A stretch of 64,000 nucleotides of DNA, taken from positions 1 to 64,000 of the forward strand of contig NZ_CP118955.1 of NCBI RefSeq assembly GCF_029023785.1. Direction: 5' to 3'. The number at the start of each line of letters is the position of its first letter. Position 1 is the stretch's first letter. Source of the stretch: Enterococcus faecium (GTDB lineage: Bacteria; Bacillota; Bacilli; Lactobacillales; Enterococcaceae). The notes under the pieces were generated by a model, which saw only the letters and a list, made by a program, of their open reading frames with translations, ran no database searches and had not been told where the DNA came from. Shown piece after piece: positions 8,701-55,466 of this stretch. The position numbers were made by a program, and so were the translations under genes.

Positions 8701-8752
8701 GCTAGCAAGAATAACCGATTAAAAAATCTGGTTATTCCTGCTGGCTTTTTTG
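8701..8752 (+). terminator. Rho-independent terminator after gyrA
   Basis: GCTAGCAAGAATAACC pairs with GGTTATTCCTGCTGGC, followed by six T residues. It closes the recF-gyrBA unit. Confidence 0.85.
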
Positions 8753-12885: not shown

Positions 12886-14253
12886 ATGAATGAAGTGTGG
12901 CAGGATCGAATCCCACCGCAAAATATTGAAGCTGAACAAGCGGTTTTAGGCTCTGTTTTTCTTGACGCAGAAACGATCATTGATGCCATGGAGTACATAG
13001 AGCCAAAAGACTTTTATCGTCGTGGCCATCAAATTATTTTTGAGACAATGATCGAGTTAAATGATCGTAATGAAGCGATTGACGTGGTTACTGTCAAAGA
13101 CCGGCTGGAACAAGCCAATTTGTTAGAAGATGCCGGTGGTTTAAGTTATCTCTCAGACTTGGCATTAGCAGTTCCGACAGCAGCAAATATCGTCTACTAT
13201 GCGAAAATCGTTGAAGAAAAATCATTGCTGCGTACATTGATCCAGACAGCAACAGGAATCGTTACGAAAGGATTCGAGCAAGGAGAAGAAGTTCAAACAA
13301 TTTTAGATGATGCCGAACGCAGTATCTTGGAGGTTTCGGAAAAAAGAAATCGAAGCGGCTTTTTATCTATTGCTGAAGTACTGAACTCCACGATTGAAAA
13401 TATCGATCGACTAGCTCAAAACAATGAAGAAATCACAGGTCTACCAACTGGCTATCAAGGTCTGGATAAAATGACAGCAGGTTTCCAGCCCGAAGAACTA
13501 ATCATTCTTGCTGCACGTCCAGCGGTAGGTAAAACAGCGTTTGCATTGAATATTGCTCAAAATGTAGGAACAAAAACAGATCGTTCTGTTGCGATATTTA
13601 GTTTGGAAATGGGGGCAGAATCTCTTGTAAATCGGATGCTTTGTGCAGAAGGTTCGATTGAGGCCAGCCATTTACGTACAGGTCAGCTTTCGGAAGAAGA
13701 ATGGTCGAATCTGATCGTTGCGATGGGGAGTCTTTCTCGAGCAAATATTTTTATCGATGATACACCAGGGATCAAAATCTCTGAAATCCGTGCGAAATGT
13801 CGGAAACTAGCGCAAGAAAAAGGCAATCTAGGCTTGATATTGATCGATTATTTGCAGTTGATTGAAGGTAACGGTAAAGAGAACCGTCAACAAGAAGTAT
13901 CAGATATCTCTCGCCAACTGAAAAAACTGGCGAAAGAGCTGAAAGTACCTGTCATTGCTCTTTCACAGTTATCTCGTGGAGTAGAACAGCGACAAGACAA
14001 ACGACCAGTGCTAAGTGATATTCGTGAATCCGGATCAATTGAACAAGATGCGGACATCGTAGCCTTCTTGTATCGAGATGATTATTATGAAAGAGAAGGC
14101 GGAGATGACGATGATGGAAACGAGCCAAAAAATGACAACGTCATCGAAGTCATCATCGAGAAGAACCGAAGCGGTGCACGAGGAACAGTTGAACTACTGT
14201 TTATCAAAGAATACAATAAGTTTTCGTCGCTTTCGCCAAGAGAAGAATTTTAA
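12886..14253 (+). CDS. dnaB: Replicative DNA helicase DnaB (DnaC in Bacillus)
   Basis: This hexameric 5'-3' helicase unwinds DNA ahead of the replication fork. The 455-aa protein has the N-terminal domain (IPPQNIEAEQAVLGSVFLD), a linker, and a RecA-like core with Walker A AARPAVGKTAFALN near 207-220, Walker B LILIDYLQL, and ALSQLSRGVEQR and RPVLSDIRESGSIEQDAD loops. The start is preceded by AAGGAGCGATACGT. An array of hairpin repeats begins 5 bp after its stop. Confidence 0.98.
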   Translation: MNEVWQDRIPPQNIEAEQAVLGSVFLDAETIIDAMEYIEPKDFYRRGHQIIFETMIELNDRNEAIDVVTVKDRLEQANLLEDAGGLSYLSDLALAVPTAANIVYYAKIVEEKSLLRTLIQTATGIVTKGFEQGEEVQTILDDAERSILEVSEKRNRSGFLSIAEVLNSTIENIDRLAQNNEEITGLPTGYQGLDKMTAGFQPEELIILAARPAVGKTAFALNIAQNVGTKTDRSVAIFSLEMGAESLVNRMLCAEGSIEASHLRTGQLSEEEWSNLIVAMGSLSRANIFIDDTPGIKISEIRAKCRKLAQEKGNLGLILIDYLQLIEGNGKENRQQEVSDISRQLKKLAKELKVPVIALSQLSRGVEQRQDKRPVLSDIRESGSIEQDADIVAFLYRDDYYEREGGDDDDGNEPKNDNVIEVIIEKNRSGARGTVELLFIKEYNKFSSLSPREEF

Positions 14254-14353
14254 AGAAGAGGTTGTGAGCCTTGAGCAATCCCGAGAGCTCTCGTAAGAAG
14301 ATGCAAGGAGTAACCGCAGGAACGACTAGAGTACTTAATTTAAACAGATCTCC

Positions 14354-14392
14354 AAAGGGATTGTGACAAAAGTCTTGTCACAGTCCCTTTTT
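14354..14392 (+). terminator. Capping hairpin H1 / terminator of dnaB
   Basis: AAAGGGATTGTGACAA pairs with TTGTCACAGTCCCTTT and is followed by TTTTT. Near-identical hairpins cap arrays 2 and 3, so it appears to be part of the repeat system as well as a likely terminator. Confidence 0.75.
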
Positions 14393-14398
14393 CCGAAT

Positions 14399-14516
14399 AA
14401 ACGGTGTTCAATCAGCTGACCCTTGGTATTAGCTCAGCAAACGTCAAAATATGAGGAACTATTTTGACGTTTGTTTCTCTAATACTCAGGTCAAAACGCT
14501 GATCTTACGACCTCTT
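14399..14516 (+). repeat. Hairpin module A (array 1)
   Basis: The module begins AAACGGTGTTC and ends ACGACCTCTT. The arms ATCAGCTGACC and TATTAG pair with CTAATA and GGTCAAAACGCTGAT; the inner arm CAAACGTCAAAAT pairs with ATTTTGACGTTTG around an ATGAGGAAC loop. A second copy is at 16764-16881. Confidence 0.8.
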
Positions 14517-14522
14517 TTCCTT

Positions 14523-14640
14523 AAACGGTGTTCTCCTGCCAACTCCTCGGTCACAAGTCACAATATCATCAAACATGAGAAGCAGTTTTTTGAAATTGCT
14601 CCTTGTGACTCAGAGTTAAACGGCAGGCTCACAACCTCTT
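14523..14640 (+). repeat. Hairpin module B (array 1)
   Basis: It begins AAACGGTGTTC and ends TCACAACCTCTT. The arms CTGCC and CTCGGTCACAAG pair with CTTGTGACTCAGAG and GGCAG; the inner part is AAACATGAGAAGCAGTTTT. Other copies are at 16642-16760 and, inverted, at 55348-55466. Confidence 0.8.
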
Positions 14641-14643
14641 TCT

Positions 14644-14763
14644 TAAACGGTGTTCAAAAGCTTGCATCTGCGGTAATACGCCCAATCAAACGAAAAATAT
14701 GAGAAGCTATTTTTGTTTGGCTGTTCTTATTACTTGATGCAGGACAGCTTTTTCACAACCTCT
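14644..14763 (+). repeat. Hairpin module C (array 1)
   Basis: It begins AAACGGTGTTC and ends TCACAACCTCT. The arms AAAAGCT, TGCATC and GTAATA pair with TATTAC, GATGCA and AGCTTTT; inner CAAACGAAAAATA pairs with TATTTTTGTTTG around TGAGAAGC. Other copies are at 16518-16636 and, inverted, at 55225-55344. Confidence 0.8.
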
Positions 14764-14765
14764 GA

Positions 14766-14888
14766 TTCACGGTGTTCCAAAAGTAGCTTCTTCGAAAAAT
14801 AAGTCGAAATTTCACAAAAATTTGAGAAGCAATTTTCGTACATTCCTTCTTATTTCTTGAAGCTGACCACTTCTGTTACAACCTCTTT
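14766..14888 (+). repeat. Hairpin module D (array 1)
   Basis: It begins TTCACGGTGTTCC and ends TTACAACCTCTTTT. The arms AGAAGCTACTT-like and AATAAG pair across the module; the inner core is ACAAAAATTTGAGAAGCAATTTTCGT (written here only as its type). A second copy is at 16884-17003 and a diverged one at 28652-28776. Confidence 0.75.
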
Positions 14889-14967
14889 TTTAATAACCAT
14901 TCTAAAAAGATAAAGTTCGTTTTTTAAGCGTTTTTATAAAATAAAAATAAAAATCATTCGATTTTAT

Positions 14968-14996
14968 TTGAAATATGTATCTATTATTGATACAAT
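14968..14996 (+). promoter_or_regulatory. purA promoter
   Basis: The -35 TTGAAA is at 14968-14973 and the -10 TACAAT at 14991-14996, with a 17-bp spacer. It lies 36 bp upstream of the purA start. Confidence 0.75.
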
Positions 14997-15032
14997 GGTT
15001 CAGGATTAAATAATATAGAACGAGGTGTTCAC

Positions 15033-16325
15033 ATGTCATCTGTAGTAGTAGTAGGTACGCAATGGGGCGATGAAGGGAAAGGAAAAATCACAGACTTTCT
15101 CAGTGAAAATGCTGAAGTGATTGCACGGTACCAAGGTGGCGACAATGCAGGGCACACAATTAAGTTTAACGGTGTGACTTATAAACTGCATTTGATTCCT
15201 TCTGGGATTTTTTATAAAGACAAGATCAGTGTGATCGGAAACGGCGTTGTAGTCAATCCTAAATCATTGGTTAAAGAATTAGCTTATTTACATGAAAAAG
15301 GTGTAGAAACAAGTAATTTGCGTATTTCTGACCGCGCGCACGTAATCTTGCCTTATCATATCAAATTGGACCAATTACAAGAAGATGCTAAGGGCGAAAA
15401 TAAGATTGGTACAACGATTAAAGGAATCGGACCTGCCTATATGGATAAAGCAGCTCGTGTAGGTATCCGTATTGCAGACTTATTAGATAAAGAAATTTTT
15501 GAAGAACGTCTTCGTTTGAATCTAGATGACAAAAACCGTCAATTTGTAAAAATGTTTGATTCAGAACCACTTGATTTTGACGATATTTTTGAAGAATATT
15601 ATGAATACGGACAACAAATCAAACAATACGTCACAGATACTTCCGTTATCTTGAATGATGCTTTGGATGCAGGCAAACGCGTGTTGTTTGAAGGCGCACA
15701 AGGTGTAATGCTGGATATCGACCAGGGAACTTATCCTTTTGTTACTTCTTCTAACCCAGTAGCCGGTGGGGTAACAATCGGAAGCGGTGTAGGGCCTTCA
15801 AAAATCAATAAAGTTGTCGGCGTCTGCAAAGCCTATACGTCACGTGTCGGTGATGGACCATTTCCAACTGAATTATTTGATGAAACAGGAGAACAAATCC
15901 GCGAAGTAGGACGAGAATACGGTACGACAACTGGTCGTCCGCGTCGTGTAGGCTGGTTTGATTCTGTAGTTATGCGCCATTCTAAACGAGTTTCAGGTAT
16001 TACCAACCTATCTTTAAACTCGATCGATGTATTAAGTGGATTGGAAACAGTAAAAATTTGTACGGCTTATGAATTAGATGGCGAACTAATCTACCACTAT
16101 CCAGCAAGCTTGAAAGAGTTGAACCGCTGCAAACCAATCTATGAAGAATTGCCAGGCTGGTCAGAAGACATTACAGGATGCAAAACACTTGCAGAACTGC
16201 CAGAAAACGCACGTAACTATGTACGTCGTATCTCAGAGCTTGTTGGTGTACGTATCTCAACATTTTCTGTCGGACCTGATAGAACACAAACAAACATCTT
16301 AGAAAGCGTCTGGGCGCAAATCTAA
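15033..16325 (+). CDS. purA: Adenylosuccinate synthase
   Basis: PurA joins IMP and aspartate with GTP to give adenylosuccinate, the first step from IMP to AMP. The 430-aa protein shows the GTP-binding motif [14 protein letters not shown] at its N-terminus, GDNAGHTI, the IMP-binding [11 protein letters not shown] and [23 protein letters not shown], and [11 protein letters not shown]. The start follows GAGGTGTTCAC. It is monocistronic and flanked on both sides by hairpin-repeat arrays. Confidence 0.98.
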
Positions 16326-16405
16326 GGATAAAAACGACGACTGAATCAGGACGTTCTTACCAGAGCGAGTCGAAGTGTTTATCTATACGATAATAATAAC
16401 TTGAA

Positions 16406-16465
16406 GAGGTAGTGAAAGAGACGTTTAGCCTTATTGCCGATAGGCTGTCTCTTGAACACTGTTTA
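16406..16465 (-). repeat. Short inverted repeat module in array 2
   Basis: Read on the minus strand it starts TAAACAGTGTTC and ends TCACTACCTC, matching the ends of the longer modules. The interior is only a short stem, AAGAGAC with GTCTCTT and GCC...GGC, so it resembles a module that has lost its long arms. Confidence 0.6.
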
Positions 16466-16472
16466 TTCAGAA

Positions 16473-16510
16473 TAAGGGACTGTGACAAAAACCGTGTCAC
16501 AGTCCCTTAT
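16473..16510 (+). terminator. Capping hairpin H2 downstream of purA
   Basis: ATAAGGGACTGTGACA pairs with TGTCACAGTCCCTTAT. It is nearly the same as H1 and the hairpin at 55472, including the flank TCCGAA.AAACGG leading into the first module. Confidence 0.7.
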
Positions 16511-16517
16511 TCCGAAC

Positions 16518-16636
16518 AAACGGTGTTCAAAAGCTTGCATCTACGGCACTAAGCCCAATCAGATGAAAAATATGGAGTGCTATTTTTATCTGATTGTTCT
16601 TACTGCTTGATGCAGAGCAGCTTTTTCACAACCTCT
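16518..16636 (+). repeat. Hairpin module C (array 2)
   Basis: It begins AAACGGTGTTCAAAAGCTTGC and ends TTTTTCACAACCTCT. Compared with the array 1 copy it has several substitutions in the arms and the loop reads ATGGAGTGC. Confidence 0.8.
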
Positions 16637-16641
16637 CCACT

Positions 16642-16760
16642 AAACGGTGTTCTCCTGCCAACTCCTCGGTCACAAGTCACAATATTCAACAAACATGAGA
16701 AGCTGTTTTTTGAAATTGTTCCTTGTGACTCGGAGCTAAACGGCAGGCTCACAACCTCTT
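16642..16760 (+). repeat. Hairpin module B (array 2)
   Basis: It begins AAACGGTGTTCTCCTGCC and ends GGCTCACAACCTCTT. It is nearly identical to the array 1 copy at 14523-14640, with changes such as CATCAAACATG to TCAACAAACATG near the apex. Confidence 0.8.
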
Positions 16761-16763
16761 GGT

Positions 16764-16881
16764 AAACGGTGTTCAATCAGCTGACCCTCGGTATTAGCTC
16801 AAAAAACGGCAAAATATGAGGAACTATTTTTTCCGTTTTTTTCTCTAATACTCAGGTCAAAACGCTGATTTCACAACCTCT
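16764..16881 (+). repeat. Hairpin module A (array 2)
   Basis: It begins AAACGGTGTTCAATCAGC and ends TTTCACAACCTCT. The inner arm differs from the array 1 copy (AAAAAACGGC versus CAAACGTC), and the opposing arm differs correspondingly (CCGTTTTTT versus GACGTTTG), so pairing is kept. Confidence 0.8.
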
Positions 16882-16883
16882 GA

Positions 16884-17003
16884 TTCACGGTGTTCCAGAA
16901 GTAGCTTCTACGGAAATAAGCCGAAATTTCACAAAAATTTGAGAAGCAATTTTCGTAAATTCCTTCTTATTTCTTGAAGCTGACCACTTCTGTCACAACC
17001 TCT
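16884..17003 (+). repeat. Hairpin module D (array 2)
   Basis: It begins TTCACGGTGTTCC and ends TGTCACAACCTCT. It is close to the array 1 copy at 14766-14888 and again occupies the last position in the array. Confidence 0.75.
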
Positions 17004-17111
17004 TATTTTGATTAGAACTTGCGAAAATAAACCGGTTAAAGTGTGTCTAGCGCAAGAGATTTGCTATAATAGACGATAAGGGTAAAATGTAACGAGAAGG
17101 GGTTGAAAAAT

Positions 17112-17975
17112 GTGTATCAAATTGTAACAGATTCTTGTTGTGATCTGCCATACCATGTATTAGCAAAAGAAAAAGTTGATTTTTTATCAATGAATCTCCA
17201 ATTGAATGATCAAGAGTTAGTAGATGACCTCGGAAAGACATTCAATTATGACCGCTACATGAATCAGCTGAAAAATGGTGCGATGCCTACGACATCACAA
17301 ATCAATGTTGGCCGATATTTAGAATTTTTCCGTTCTTATGCGGAAAAACAGATTCCTGTTTTATATGTGGCTTTTTCCAGTGGATTAAGCGGCTCTTACA
17401 GTAGTGCGCTTCAAGCGGTTGAATTGCTGAAGGAAGAATATGAAGACCCTGAGATCTATGTTTTTGATACAAAAGCTGCAAGTATTGGGGAAGGGCTTTT
17501 AGTATTGGAAGCTGTAAGATTGAAAAAAGAAGGTAAAAGCATCGAAGAAACCCTAGAGTGGCTGGAAAGTAATTATTTGAAAGTCCATTCATGGGTAACA
17601 GTAGACGATCTGAAATATCTAGAACGAGGCGGTAGGATTTCCAAAGCAAGTGCTACTCTTGGCAGTCTATTGAGTGTAAAGCCTATTATTACGGTGGATA
17701 AAGAAGGAAGGCTGACGAATGTTGACAAAGTTCGAGGAAGAAACAAGTCGATCCAGACAATCGTCAATGAGACGGTAAAAACAATCGTTGCACCACTTGA
17801 TCAAATCGTTTATGTGGCTTACGCTGGGGATCTAGAGAGCGCGGAGAAGGCAAAACGGCTTTTGGAAGAGCAGATAAAGATGAAAGATGTGAAGCTTTAT
17901 CCCTTAGGACCAACGATCGCCAGTCACACAGGCTATGGCTGTATCGCGATTTTTTCGATGGGAATCAGTCGATAA
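17112..17975 (+). CDS. DegV family fatty-acid-binding protein
   Basis: DegV/FakB proteins are soluble two-domain proteins that hold a fatty acid for the kinase FakA. The 287-aa protein shows TDSCCDLP, TTSQIN, SSGLSGSYSSA and YLERGGRISK, the usual family landmarks. GTG 17112 is chosen as the start because AGAAGGGG (17095-17102) lies 9 nt upstream; a TTG at 17103 abuts that site. Its partner fakA is not in this window, and which fatty acid it carries cannot be told from sequence. Confidence 0.88.
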   Translation: MYQIVTDSCCDLPYHVLAKEKVDFLSMNLQLNDQELVDDLGKTFNYDRYMNQLKNGAMPTTSQINVGRYLEFFRSYAEKQIPVLYVAFSSGLSGSYSSALQAVELLKEEYEDPEIYVFDTKAASIGEGLLVLEAVRLKKEGKSIEETLEWLESNYLKVHSWVTVDDLKYLERGGRISKASATLGSLLSVKPIITVDKEGRLTNVDKVRGRNKSIQTIVNETVKTIVAPLDQIVYVAYAGDLESAEKAKRLLEEQIKMKDVKLYPLGPTIASHTGYGCIAIFSMGISR

Positions 17976-20574: not shown

Positions 20575-20694
20575 GACAAATATGCACGAGGTGATTTTTA
20601 GGTGTCGAGACAAATTTATGCAAAAATGTGAGAAGCTATATACACAAATTTTATCTTAATACTCGAAGCATAGCGCAGTTGTCACAACCTCTTT
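20575..20694 (+). repeat. Hairpin module E, overlapping the pyruvate oxidase stop codon
   Basis: It ends TTGTCACAACCTCTTTT like the other modules and has the loop core AAAAATGTGAGAAGCTATA. Its left end lacks a clear AAACGGTGTTC. The end motif overlaps the last codons of the minus-strand pox gene: reversed, it reads AAG AGG TTG TGA (Lys-Arg-Leu-stop). Confidence 0.65.
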
Positions 20695-22412
20695 TCATAT
20701 AATTCATTCAATACTGGCAAATCATGGACTTCATATTTTTCTTTGAATGCTTGGATTTCTTCTTCAGAATATTTTCTTGGATCTAAATGCAGATCTTCTA
20801 CTGGCAATGGGCGCTTGTTATTGATCTTCACATCGATTACTACAGGACGATCTGATTTTGCAGCTGCATCAAAGGCAAATCGAAGTTGCGAGTATTCTGT
20901 GACTGTAAAGCTATTTGCCCCGAGCGCTTCTCCAACTTTACCGAAATCTGCATCTTCTAAAAATACACCAAATTTCTTTTGTTCCGTATCTTCTTGTTCT
21001 GCTTCGATGAAACCAAAAGAATCATTCGAAAAGACAACATTAATAATTGGAAGCTGATATTTGACTTGTGTAATGATATCTTGCATGACCATAGCAAACC
21101 CGCCATCACCACTTAAGGTAAATACTTGTTTTTCTGGGTAGCTTAGTTGTGCGGCAATTCCTCCTGGCACACCATTACCCATAGTTGCGAACCATCCAGA
21201 TGTCGTATGTTTTTGTTTACCGTTCATATTCAATAAACGAATAGAATGGATAGTCGTGTTACCGACATCTGTGACGAAAATCGCATCGTCTTCAGCAATA
21301 CGATTGATTTCTTTATAGACAGCCTCTGGACGAATCGGTTCTTCCTCTCGATCTTCAAAAGATTTCAACCAATTTACCCATTTTTCTTTATTTTCTTGAT
21401 TTGCTAGGTACCAGCTATCAGCAGGGCGAGCATCCCCTAACTCGACAAGTCTTTGCAAAGCTGTGTTTGCATCACCGAGGATCGACAAAGATGTTTCATG
21501 GCGTCGTCCAAATTTTGACGCATCGATATCGATTTGGATAAATTCAGCAGTTGGATTAAAAAATGCACGTCCAAATGGGAAGTCGCTACCGACAAATAAG
21601 ATCAGATCGGCTTCTGCCAATGCTTCATTTCCGGGTTTAGTAGCGACACGTCCAGCAAAACCAAGAAAGTTTTCATAATCATCAGGAATAATTCCTTTTG
21701 CTAGAACGGAAGCGACAACAGGAACTGAAAAATGTTCTGAGAATTCTTTGATTTGCGGAAATCCGTTTCGCGTTCCTTGACCAACATAAAGAACTGGTTT
21801 TTTTGCTTTTTCAAGATAAGGCAAAGCAGCTAGCAAATCTTTTTCTTCTGGTAATATCACACTTGTTTTGTGAGTGTGAGCGGTGGAGAAAGGTTGTTCG
21901 TCAATTTCTTCAAAACCAAGATCAACAGGGATAGTCACGATAGCCACGCCTTTATGCTCATAGGCGGCTTTAATGGCTTCATCTACTACATGCGGAAGAC
22001 TTTGTGGTGTCATGACTGTACGATTGTATACGCTAACATCTGCGAAAATAGGATTTTCATTTAGTTCCTGGAAAGAGTTATAGTTCATGGATGTAGAAGC
22101 AACTTGTCCTAAGAACGCTACTAGAGGCACATGGTCCATCTGTGCATCATACAAACCATTGATCAAATGTGTCGCACCAGGTCCTGCAGAGCCGAAGACA
22201 GCGCCGACTTTCCCCGTTAATTTTGCATCTGCAGCGGCTGCGAGTGCGCCGACTTCTTCATGACGAACTTGAATGTAGTTGATTTCGGTTTTTTCTTGAT
22301 ATAGCGCATCCATAATTGAATTGAAAGATCCTCCGGGAATGCCGTAAATATGGTCGATACCCCAGCTTTCAAGAACTTTTACCATTGCGATTCCTGCATT
22401 GATTTTTGACAT
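20682..22412 (-). CDS. spxB: Pyruvate oxidase (acetyl-phosphate and H2O2 forming)
   Basis: This TPP- and FAD-dependent enzyme converts pyruvate, phosphate and O2 to acetyl-phosphate, CO2 and H2O2. The 576-aa length is typical. The N-terminal PYR domain reads WGIDHIYGIPGGSFNSIMDAL and QVRHEEVGALAAA with the catalytic Glu, followed by a central FAD-binding domain and a C-terminal PP domain with GDGGFAMVMQDIITQVKYQLP and the TPP motif ending in NND-like VVFSNDSFG. The start follows AAAGGAGTGAAACACC. The last codons (KRL-stop) come from the end of a hairpin repeat. Confidence 0.93.
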   Translation of the reverse strand: MSKINAGIAMVKVLESWGIDHIYGIPGGSFNSIMDALYQEKTEINYIQVRHEEVGALAAAADAKLTGKVGAVFGSAGPGATHLINGLYDAQMDHVPLVAFLGQVASTSMNYNSFQELNENPIFADVSVYNRTVMTPQSLPHVVDEAIKAAYEHKGVAIVTIPVDLGFEEIDEQPFSTAHTHKTSVILPEEKDLLAALPYLEKAKKPVLYVGQGTRNGFPQIKEFSEHFSVPVVASVLAKGIIPDDYENFLGFAGRVATKPGNEALAEADLILFVGSDFPFGRAFFNPTAEFIQIDIDASKFGRRHETSLSILGDANTALQRLVELGDARPADSWYLANQENKEKWVNWLKSFEDREEEPIRPEAVYKEINRIAEDDAIFVTDVGNTTIHSIRLLNMNGKQKHTTSGWFATMGNGVPGGIAAQLSYPEKQVFTLSGDGGFAMVMQDIITQVKYQLPIINVVFSNDSFGFIEAEQEDTEQKKFGVFLEDADFGKVGEALGANSFTVTEYSQLRFAFDAAAKSDRPVVIDVKINNKRPLPVEDLHLDPRKYSEEEIQAFKEKYEVHDLPVLNELYEKRL

Positions 22413-28651: not shown

Positions 28652-28776
28652 ATAAACGGCGGAAGCAGAAGCAACTCCTTCGGAAATAAGCTGAAATTCA
28701 CAAAAATTTGAAAAGCAATTTTCGTGAATTTCTTCTTATTTCTTGGAGTTAAACGCTTCTGTCCCAGCCTCTTTTT
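28652..28776 (+). repeat. Hairpin module D-like, diverged
   Basis: It begins TAAACGGCGGAAGCAGAAGC and ends CTGTCCCAGCCTCTTT, a variant of the usual ACAACCTCT end. The inside matches module D: GGAAATAAG.TGAAATTCAC and TTCTTATTTCTTGGAG, with loop TTGAAAAGC. Confidence 0.65.
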
Positions 28777-40001: not shown

Positions 40002-40147
40002 CGGCGTTATGATAAGAATGAAACAAATTAACTTATATTATAGTCTCTTTTGGTAGGGAACCATCTTATTTTTAATGAAAATCAAGCATTTTAGCTATTG
40101 AAGAATGTTGATTTATAGGGATTCCCCCTCCATATTATGTTGGCTCT

Positions 40148-41713
40148 TTATTCCCACTCCACTGTTGCTGGTGGTTTAGAAGTGATGTCATACACGATAC
40201 GGTTGACGTGGGCTACTTCGTTTACGATACGTACAGAGATTTTTTGCAAGACTTCCCATGGGATACGGGCAAAGTCAGCGGTCATTCCGTCGATTGAAGT
40301 TACAGCACGGATACCGACTGTGTAGTCGTAAGTACGTCCGTCACCCATAACACCGACAGAGCGGATCCCTGGAAGAACAGTGAAATATTGCCAGATATCA
40401 CGGTCAAGTCCAGCAGCTGCGATTTCTTCACGCAAGATAGCATCAGATTCGCGTACGATTTCTAGCTTGTCTTCAGTGATTTCGCCAAGAACACGAATAC
40501 CAAGACCAGGACCAGGGAATGGCTGACGCCAAACGATTGAATCAGGCATGCCTAACTGAGTCCCTAATTCACGGACTTCGTCTTTGAATAATGTGTTTAA
40601 TGGTTCGATCAATTCAAATTGCATATCTTCTGGCAGTCCACCTACATTATGGTGAGATTTGATCGTCTGTGCTGTTTCTGTACCAGATTCGATAACGTCA
40701 GTATACAACGTTCCTTGTGCTAGGAAAGAGACGCCTTCTTCACCAGCAAGTTTTGTTGCTTCGTCATCAAAAACATATACGAATTCATTCCCAATGATTT
40801 TACGTTTTTGTTCTGGGTCAGATACACCTTTCAACTTGTCTAAGAAGCGATCTCTTGCATCGACTTTGATGATGTTCAAGCCGAATTTTCCGCCTAGACT
40901 TTCCATTACTTGTTCCGCTTCGCCTTTGCGTAGCAGACCGTGGTCAACAAAGATAGATGTCAATTGGTCACCGATCGCTTTTTGTAAAAGAACCCCAACG
41001 ACACTAGAATCAACGCCACCTGAAAGACCAAGCAAGACTTTTTTGTCACCAACTTGTTCACGGATTTTTTCTACTTGCATATCGATAAAGTTATCCATTG
41101 TCCAGTTACCTTCACAGTGACAAACATCAAAGGCAAAGTGGCGCAGCAATTCGATTCCGTATTCGGAATGACGTACTTCTGCATGGAATTGGATACCATA
41201 AAAATTACGTGTTGTGTCTTGGATAGAAGCAATCGGACAATCTTTGCTTGTTCCGACTGTTTCAAAGCCTTCAGGAACTTTAGTTACCAAGTCACCATGG
41301 CTCATCCATACTGTTTGTTGTTTTGGTGTTTCTTTAAACAAGACAGCTTGATCGCTTGTTACTTCTAACAAGGCTTTCCCATATTCGCGGTTTTTAGCAG
41401 GCTCTACGGAACCGCCAAGTTTGTACGTGATCAATTGCATACCATAGCAAATCCCTAATACAGGAATACCTAAATTGAAGATCTCAGGATCGATCCCAAA
41501 TGCATTCTCATCATATACACTGTTTGGTCCGCCAGAAAGAATGATTCCCTTTGGATTCATCGCTTTTACTTCTTCTGCAGTAATGCGGTGGCTCAATAAT
41601 TCGGAAAAGACTCCAAGATCACGAATACGTCTTGTGATCAATTGGTTATACTGACTACCGTAGTCTAATACGATAATCTTTTCAACGTTCGTCATATCGG
41701 CAACGTTTGTCAA
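40148..41713 (-). CDS. guaA: GMP synthase (glutamine-hydrolysing)
   Basis: GuaA aminates XMP to GMP with glutamine and ATP. The 521-aa protein has an N-terminal class I amidotransferase with the Cys in GICYGMQLI (near 85) and the His/Glu in [11 protein letters not shown], then an ATP-pyrophosphatase with P-loop [11 protein letters not shown] (near 235) and the C-terminal dimerisation domain ending [13 protein letters not shown] 41713 is the likely start because AGGGGT lies 8 nt upstream; the internal ATG at 41695 has no site. Only 58 bp separate it from coaA, with no sign of a purine riboswitch there. Confidence 0.96.
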
Positions 41714-55224: not shown

Positions 55225-55344
55225 GAAGGAAATGAAAAAGCTGCCCTGCATTAAGTAATAAGAACATCCAAGCAAAAATAGCTCCTCATGTTTTTGACTT
55301 GGCTGGACTTATTATTGCAAATGTAAGCTTTTGAACACCGTTTA
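55225..55344 (-). repeat. Hairpin module C (array 3, inverted)
   Basis: On the minus strand it begins TAAACGGTGTTCAAAAGC and runs through GCAATAATAAG and loop ATGAGGAGC to GCAGGGCAGCTTTTTCATT. Its final end motif is degraded (TTCATTTCCTTCT instead of TTCACAACCTCT). Confidence 0.7.
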
Positions 55345-55347
55345 CCA

Positions 55348-55466
55348 AGAGGTTGTGAATCTGCCGTTTAACTCTGAGTCACAAGGAACAATTTCAAAAA
55401 ACAGCTTTTCATGTTTGATGAATATTGTGACTTGTGACCGAGAAGTTGGCAGGAGAAAACCGTTTA
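55348..55466 (-). repeat. Hairpin module B (array 3, inverted)
   Basis: On the minus strand it begins TAAACGGTTTTCTCCTGCC and ends GATTCACAACCTCTT, with loop ATGAAAAGC. It is highly similar to the B modules at 14523 and 16642. Confidence 0.75.

Follow-up and report, generated by a model that had tools for sequence, protein, structure and literature searches.

Two intergenic regions beside purA in Enterococcus faecium raise the question of what kind of element is formed by the tandem hairpin modules found there. The regions lie in the first 64,000 nucleotides of contig NZ_CP118955.1 (assembly GCF_029023785.1), the whole stretch analysed here and called the window below. One array occupies 14399-14886, between dnaB (12886-14253) and purA (15033-16325), the other 16518-17003, between purA and a DegV-like gene (17103-17975); these gene names were read from the translations alone. 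An initial annotation had offered folded RNA, cruciform DNA or a mobile family as explanations. From the present analyses it appears, with moderate confidence, that the modules belong to a non-autonomous family of modular palindromic elements of the Enterococcaceae, which would be located at the 3' ends of transcription units and possibly be mobilised by IS1182-type transposition. Direct observation underlies the copy number, the covarying fold, the place behind stop codons in most arrays of this genome, the strand-specific stability, and the differences among species, in whole modules and their order, and among strains, in single modules.

All eight modules of the two arrays were located by cmsearch with a covariance model, and the tandem arrangement of four types, A to D, is confirmed. 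On the - strand, which is the better-folding one, the first array consists of A (14399-14515, 104.4 bits), B (14523-14639, 117.0 bits), C (14645-14763, 118.2 bits), and D (14767-14886, 109.2 bits), the second of C (16518-16636, 114.3 bits), B (16642-16759, 127.3 bits), A (16764-16881, 116.3 bits), and D (16885-17003, 124.3 bits), so that the order is ABCD in one and CBAD in the other, a difference passed over in the initial annotation. The matches greatly exceed chance: E-values ranged from 5.4e-30 to 3.6e-24 for a model built partly from these same eight modules, and loci from other species matched it with E down to 4.2e-29. The modules are 117-120 bp long and separated by spacers of 3-7 bp. 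Their ends are indeed common, AAACGGTGTTC (in D TCACGGTGTTC) on one side and TCACAACCTCT on the other, with single copies showing TTACGACCTCT and TTACAACCTCT. The outer end of the first D module, AGAGGTTGTAACAGAAGTGG on the - strand, resembles an IS1182-type terminal repeat.

The window harbors further copies beyond those first described, and the genome many more. A DNA search of the genome gave 72 matches. Among 122 candidates kept around these matches, 118 modules could be typed (A 31, B 22, C 35, D 13, E 15, F 2); the four untyped ones include one genuine divergent module at 1935571, and two A/C chimeras, at 328357 and 2445035, were counted under C. A covariance model designated R1 found 134 matches at 133 places in 33 stretches of this genome and at least 52 more outside them, hence at least 185 modules in total. 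Arrays range from single modules to strings such as AAAACE and AEEEEC, composed of six main types. In 11 of its 13 copies, type D is the module at the TCACAACCTCT end, which faces the stop codon; EDC and DCA are the exceptions. With stricter filters, by which weak matches were lost, R1 detected the family in 54 of 78 Enterococcaceae genomes and 14 of the 17 genera sampled; outside the family but within its order, five of the 51 genomes sampled gave one to three matches each. A pattern scan of named genomes yielded at least 120 stretches, and among those listed 115 were from Enterococcus (E. lactis, E. villorum, E. thailandicus, E. durans, E. mundtii, E. italicus and others) and five were stray. 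Enterococcal module sequences are also contained in CP069367, CP069368, and CP069369, which are named as plasmids of Klebsiella pneumoniae and are likely mixed or mis-assembled records.

Comparisons of the module types revealed one common fold, which is read on the reverse strand. At its base, a clamp GGU.GU/AC.ACC is followed by a 7-bp stem, a one-sided bulge of 4 nt and a 6-bp stem; next come an asymmetric loop, one side of which is CCGA-like, a stem, a small loop and a variable stem of about 10 bp, and an A/U-rich top stem with an 8-nt loop like GCUYCUCA forms the apex. For alignment, 37 modules were picked and 34 were used, C_1656989, D_844525, and E_507828 being left out. In these 34 modules, 91.1% of the cells were paired and changes on both sides were seen in 29 of 34 pairs. 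The covariation score was 0.690, compared with 0.239 +- 0.013 in shuffled and at most 0.135 in slid alignments, and further pair types were weakly above the shuffles (73 versus 69.3; 70 of 500 shuffles were as high). For other enterococci, the best 150 of 296 matches gave 0.722 versus 0.215 shuffled on a model-fitted alignment, with pair types not above the shuffles (93 versus 94.3). The suspected covariation between the arms is therefore strong in both sets. The paired change noted between the two copies of module A is present as well, but the second copy pairs imperfectly.

The modules had been described in the direction that folds less well: in 110 of 118 modules the opposite strand gave the more stable fold, whether RNA or DNA parameters were used, and this strand is usually the sense strand of the adjacent gene. 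A conserved structure is well supported by these data. Strand position and fold energy favor an RNA transcribed in the reverse-strand sense, so that RNA is the likely carrier of the structure; hairpin-templated repair could instead have produced the covariation of the arms.

The position of the arrays relative to genes was determined for arrays with all modules on one strand, at least one near-full module and a flanking gene on both sides. In 39 of 46 such arrays, the gene on the TCACAACCTCT side is directed toward the modules, compared with 51 of 174 module-free gene pairs from the same stretches. The distance from the stop codon to the array in these 39 cases has a median of 7 nt; it is within 30 nt in 34 and, counted by hand from the list of distances, within 15 nt in 26. 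The sequence TAAGAGGTT stands at the junction of gene and array in five of the 39. Given this gene-facing placement and the short distances, the better-folding strand usually runs from the stop codon through the modules to the terminator. The two arrays beside purA are among six '++' cases in this genome, in which both flanking genes are antisense to the array, and represent a minority form. The loci of other species show a similar but less pronounced pattern: the right gene points into the array in 89 of 125 cases, with 28 '++' and eight '-+' arrangements. The available part of the main text of a published E. faecium RNA map (PMC7724050) does not contain the terms 'repeat', 'palindrom' or 'hairpin'; prediction of 3' untranslated regions (UTRs) was limited to 300 nt there, which leaves no room for an array with at least three modules.

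Pronounced turnover became apparent when E. faecium was compared with E. lactis. At 21 sites with alignable flanks, mostly 91-98% identical, the module strings differ at 20 and are the same at one, a single A. Examples of corresponding strings (E. faecium/E. lactis) are ABCD/ACD, CBAD/BCD, EDC/CAD, ACB/CBA, BC/BAC, aBC/aEC, e/eCF, and none/BCD; at the site of the module 20577-20692 in the window, E. lactis has two extra modules (C, F). This sample is non-random, as 17 sites came from E. lactis stretches chosen for a tandem junction and four were added; it comprises sites at which both flanks could be mapped, the C-B array of the window (compared as 55229-55465) being left out of the count owing to rearrangement of its counterpart region, and the E. 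lactis labels derive from profile searches with the E. faecium types. Mini-modules lacking the hairpin top are found at two E. lactis loci (L102, L068).

Within E. faecium, three of five compared sites differ by exactly one module plus one linker, and two strings are identical. The alleles of other strains were BCD versus CD at a cystine-transporter gene (aligned pieces 99.7 and 99.8% identical), BAEC versus BAE at asnS (98.6, 94.5, and 99.4%), and bC versus bAC (99.7%), the string of the window's genome being given second. E. faecium records match this genome with 99.7-99.9% identity over kilobases, in line with its species. The alleles were taken from E. faecium records filed as plasmids, seven of which were annotated, two (L239, L240) being without counterpart in the stretches of this genome. 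Carriage of modules on plasmids was considered and dismissed, since two of the records look like pieces of chromosome and were used as other-strain alleles. NZ_CP066613 (L180) is a 4.1-kb 'plasmid' record with a lactoylglutathione lyase and the cystine transporter, the latter chromosomal in the window's genome, and NZ_CP025686 (L181) has asnS, likewise chromosomal here, annotated twice in opposite directions. Because the family is both dispersed and polymorphic, a mobile element is supported. It resembles a gene-end element that changes unusually fast and is probably related to transposon ends.

Which transposon could be involved was suggested by the outer ends. E. lactis has an IS1182-family element (L190) with the terminal repeat GGGACTGTGACATAAGT, whose two ends read AAAGGGACTGTGACATAAGTCC and AAAGGAGGCGTGACATAAGTTA. 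Its transposase is named IS1182 family in NCBI records, and near-identical transposase DNA is present in 57 plasmid records. By eye, the terminator arm AAAAAGGGACTGTGACAAAAGTCT and the D-module end AGAGGTTGTGACAGAAGTGG are close to AAAGGGACTGTGACATAAGTCC and AAAGGAGGCGTGACATAAGTTA; among the six types of the window's genome, only D carries the longer match to the terminal repeat. Modules at the dnaB-purA site of two other genomes (G006 and G011) end in GAGGTCGGGACAGAAGTG. Of the other IS1182-type loci compared in the genus, GAGAGTGGGACAATAGT is present at four (G004) and GAGCTTGGGACATAAGTCC at two that overlap (G012), with a GGGACA core in common. For IS1272, a member of the IS1182 family, the available part of PMC5678879 describes replacement of target stem-loops without target-site duplication. 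One site pair fits such a replacement: at 8710-8739 (+), a module-free site in the window, E. faecium has the top of a plain terminator hairpin, whereas in E. lactis (L165), where a similar outer stem and U-run are present, a terminator hairpin together with B-C-D stands in its place.

Two IS1182-family loci in the window's genome were also inspected. The copy at C1:1125669 was considered as a source of the ends and rejected, its terminal repeat being CAGACTGTAGACAAA. This element (G000:C1:1125669; L182, 1389-2909) lies between two copies of GGGTAGGTCTTTTATAAGATCT; it sits in a terminator stem-loop that is partly duplicated, and hairpin-like flanks are likewise seen in several relatives in the genus. 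A transposase remnant at G000:C1:81451 (L183) is found beside a D-C-A-B array (80798-81276) behind a gene.

Mobility could in principle be provided by another kind of enzyme. Single-strand transfer of hairpins by an IS200/IS605-type (Y1) transposase, as proposed for repetitive extragenic palindromic (REP) elements, would agree with strand-specific hairpins with fixed ends and with the Y1 transposase genes of this genome, represented by two strong matches plus a pair of weak, neighbouring pieces. The size of about 120 bp, the inverted-repeat-like outer ends, and the location at terminators do not agree with it, and the two Y1 pieces (C1:480689-480896) are about 4 kb away from the array at 476188-476673. 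We consider this route very improbable.

Several results weigh against IS1182-mobilised elements that act as RNA at gene ends, and these have to be seen together with the remaining explanations. As to the strand, standing G-U cells exceeded A-C cells by 233:65 and 222:22 in alignments fitted to the reverse-strand structure; when derived changes were counted in a strand-neutral manner, 46 G-U and 33 A-C sites were obtained, which is not significant (p = 0.18). An argument for selection on RNA from the prevalence of G-U over A-C was consequently abandoned, as the structure-fitted excess was not confirmed by the neutral test. Of the choices offered by the initial annotation, structure and mobility are supported, and RNA rather than DNA is the likely folded form. 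As to the position, the two arrays beside purA are themselves antisense and lie past the dnaB and purA terminators, other species show less orientation bias among tandem gene pairs ('--' 37, '++' 28), and genes were called by a simple open reading frame rule. Purely selfish repeats, having no function, would account for the position by loss of insertions elsewhere and for the covariation by hairpin-templated repair of quasi-palindromes. Gain, loss and truncation of whole modules, the E. lactis mini-modules and the lack of significance in the G-U test are in line with them; fixed internal bulges and loops, the asymmetry of 110 in 118 modules toward the strand that is usually gene-sense, and the tight spacing to stop codons (median 7 nt) are not. 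Selfish repeats of this kind are possible, though rather unlikely.

The other points against the IS1182 connection concern the element and the linkers. The limits of the E. lactis element were judged from its inverted repeat without an empty site, and it is the only one of 30 IS1182-type loci of the genus that matches closely; ten of the 30 have CAGACTGTAGACAAA or CAGATTGTAGACAAA, a poorer fit. In the window's genome no insertion sequence with such ends was found; its two PF13751 matches represent a remnant and an element whose terminal repeat is different. No IS1182 element forming a single unit with modules was found and no transposition was seen, and a stem-loop replacement is suggested by one site pair, in which either state may be the older. 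The linkers fall into a few recurring kinds (GAT-like 29, TCCTT-like 24, TGGT-like 10, CCACT 7, others 3). Overall, flanking linkers are alike in 20 of 39 pairs compared with 11.2 expected, but in arrays without repeated types the figures are 6 of 24 and 6.2. Target-site duplications, convincing in single loci with TCCTT on both sides, were rejected on this basis: equal linkers are in excess only where a module type recurs within the array.

That restriction is in line with homologous recombination or gene conversion among dispersed arrays as the sole source of turnover, a transposase never having acted on single modules. The two A/C chimeras (328357, 2445035) and the location of one-module differences in shared repeats point in the same direction. 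Recombination alone does not explain the filling of new sites, of which 8710-8739 versus L165 is perhaps an example, nor the likeness of the outer ends to the IS1182 terminal repeat. As a complete explanation it appears doubtful.

For the favored reading, modular gene-end elements with possible IS1182 mobility, the following scheme can be proposed. The element would consist of an intrinsic terminator hairpin (arm AAAGGGACTGTGACA) and one to six tandem modules of about 120 nt, and along the strand the order would be stop codon, a few nt, n repetitions of AGAGGTTGTGA, long hairpin, GAACACCGTTT, and linker of 3-7 nt, and then the terminator. The outer ends may be, or may once have been, used as terminal repeats by an IS1182-family transposase whose insertions take the place of terminator stem-loops; elements would therefore land behind stop codons and leave termination intact. 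Single modules would be gained or lost by recombination or slippage between the shared 11-bp ends and similar 3' ends. Once transcribed, an array could form a row of stable hairpins protecting or processing the 3' end of the mRNA, and the ribosome may be slowed during termination where the first hairpin is no more than about 15 nt from the stop codon, as reported for REP. This last step need not apply to the two arrays beside purA, since they lie past the dnaB and purA terminators and are antisense to both genes.

A more far-reaching possibility is a combinatorial 3'-UTR cassette system, a family-wide kit of interchangeable structured RNA modules that would stand between the stop codon and the terminator of many genes, with strings that are rewritten within species and tune mRNA 3'-end stability, processing or stop-codon-proximal translation. 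We regard it as unlikely; it would amount to fast heritable tuning of gene expression. If the arrays do act on mRNA 3' ends, a large hypervariable layer of structured RNA would exist at the gene ends of an important genus, providing a mechanism for expression differences between strains with near-identical genes, and it might explain repeats used in E. faecium typing. The natural pairs differing by one module allow a direct test of the effect of a 3'-UTR hairpin. The family may further be a case of stem-loop-replacing transposition shaping 3' UTRs.

Additional features of the window complete the picture. Each of the two arrays begins just past an intrinsic-terminator-like hairpin of the type AAGGGACTGTGACA..TGTCACAGTCCCTT. 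Between dnaB and the first array, this hairpin is AAAGGGATTGTGACA-AAAGTCT-TGTCACAGTCCCTTTTT (14354-14392, +), with arms resembling the IS1182-type terminal repeat; at the second, the inverted repeat AAGGGACTGTGACA..TGTCACAGTCCCTT is located at 16474-16508 (+). Between each hairpin and the preceding stop codon there is a module trace in opposite orientation. Behind purA it is a short form of 60 bp (16405-16464, +; 48.6 bits, E 5.7e-10), sense to purA and situated between this gene and its terminator hairpin. Behind dnaB it is an end only, AGAGGTTGTGA at 14258-14268 (+), 4 nt past the stop codon and covered by an inverted repeat of 14249-14271 with 14625-14647 (91% identity); it may stem from a sense-strand module, and is a remnant at most, because cmsearch gave no match there up to E 5. 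An E-like module (20577-20692, -) directly follows the gene 20682-22412 (-), whose stop codon TGA sits inside AGAGGTTGTGA, the element also supplying its last residues (20682-20692); by its translation, this gene is pyruvate-oxidase-like. A D-like module with its own hairpin is present at 28654-28772 (-) as a covariance-model match, and the C-B array (55225-55343 and 55348-55465, +) is located behind a + strand gene and followed by a terminator hairpin. Apart from the modules, 40021-40162 (-) corresponds to the Listeria small RNA family rli38 (RF01470; 89.5 bits, gathering score 49), the sole Rfam match at the gathering threshold in the whole window.

Rfam gave no gathering-level match for 14354-17003, in agreement with the initial annotation, which had named no matching family. 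A permissive search of 14200-17100 produced ten sub-threshold matches, nine to microRNAs and one to rliD; membership in a known Rfam family was rejected, as none reached the gathering threshold. In the literature searched, to which the original EFAR and MLVA (multilocus variable-number tandem repeat analysis) papers did not belong, no published description of the modules in E. faecium was found. From E. faecalis, repeats named EFAR are reported.

Identity of the modules with the E. faecalis EFAR or Efa-1 repeats, or with the variable-number tandem repeats (VNTRs) used for MLVA of E. faecium, is conceivable but not probable. Efa-1 is a 163-bp intergenic family with 65 copies and a double hairpin (PMC2267715), like the modules a high-copy structured intergenic repeat of an Enterococcus; by description it is set apart from them, since they are single long hairpins of about 118 nt and of many types. 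The E. faecium MLVA repeats are typing markers, tandem and variable in number, of 120-279 bp and with incomplete units (PMC1865547). VNTR-7 to -10 share with the arrays tandem units of similar length, variable number and incomplete units; again by description, they differ in that the available part of PMC1865547 reports no structure or family for them.

Among more distant systems, BOX (boxA-boxB-boxC), RUP and SPRITE of the pneumococcus (PMC3049150) are modular intergenic repeats. In architecture they are similar: many intergenic copies, a variable number of modules, and ends like those of miniature inverted-repeat transposable elements (MITEs). Their hairpins are transcribed, and SPRITE has a terminator-like partner near 3' ends; both would be features in common with the present arrays. 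In BOX, outer modules enclose a variable number of inner boxB, whereas here every module is a complete hairpin of about 118 nt, the types occur in many orders, and the arrays are mostly located directly behind stop codons. E. coli REP elements are palindromes in 3' UTRs and, when near stop codons, are reported to stall ribosomes within 15 nt (PMC12306157); similarly, 26 of the 39 gene-abutting arrays start at most 15 nt from the stop codon. REPs are palindromes of 20-40 bp with a GTAG or CGTC tag (PMC3733652), in contrast to the covarying modules of 117-120 bp, which have no such tag at their ends when read by eye and are associated with a terminator and IS1182-like ends. With IS1182 and IS1272 the elements share ends resembling GGGACTGTGACATAAGT of one E. 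lactis member, and in one site pair a target stem-loop may likewise have been replaced, but they contain a modular array instead of a transposase gene, and unlike classical MITEs, single modules are without target-site duplications. The general kind of element is thus already known from BOX, SPRITE, REP, and MITE; as far as checked, the combination of interchangeable full-hairpin modules, placement at stop codons, a terminator nucleus, and reshuffling at the strain level is new.

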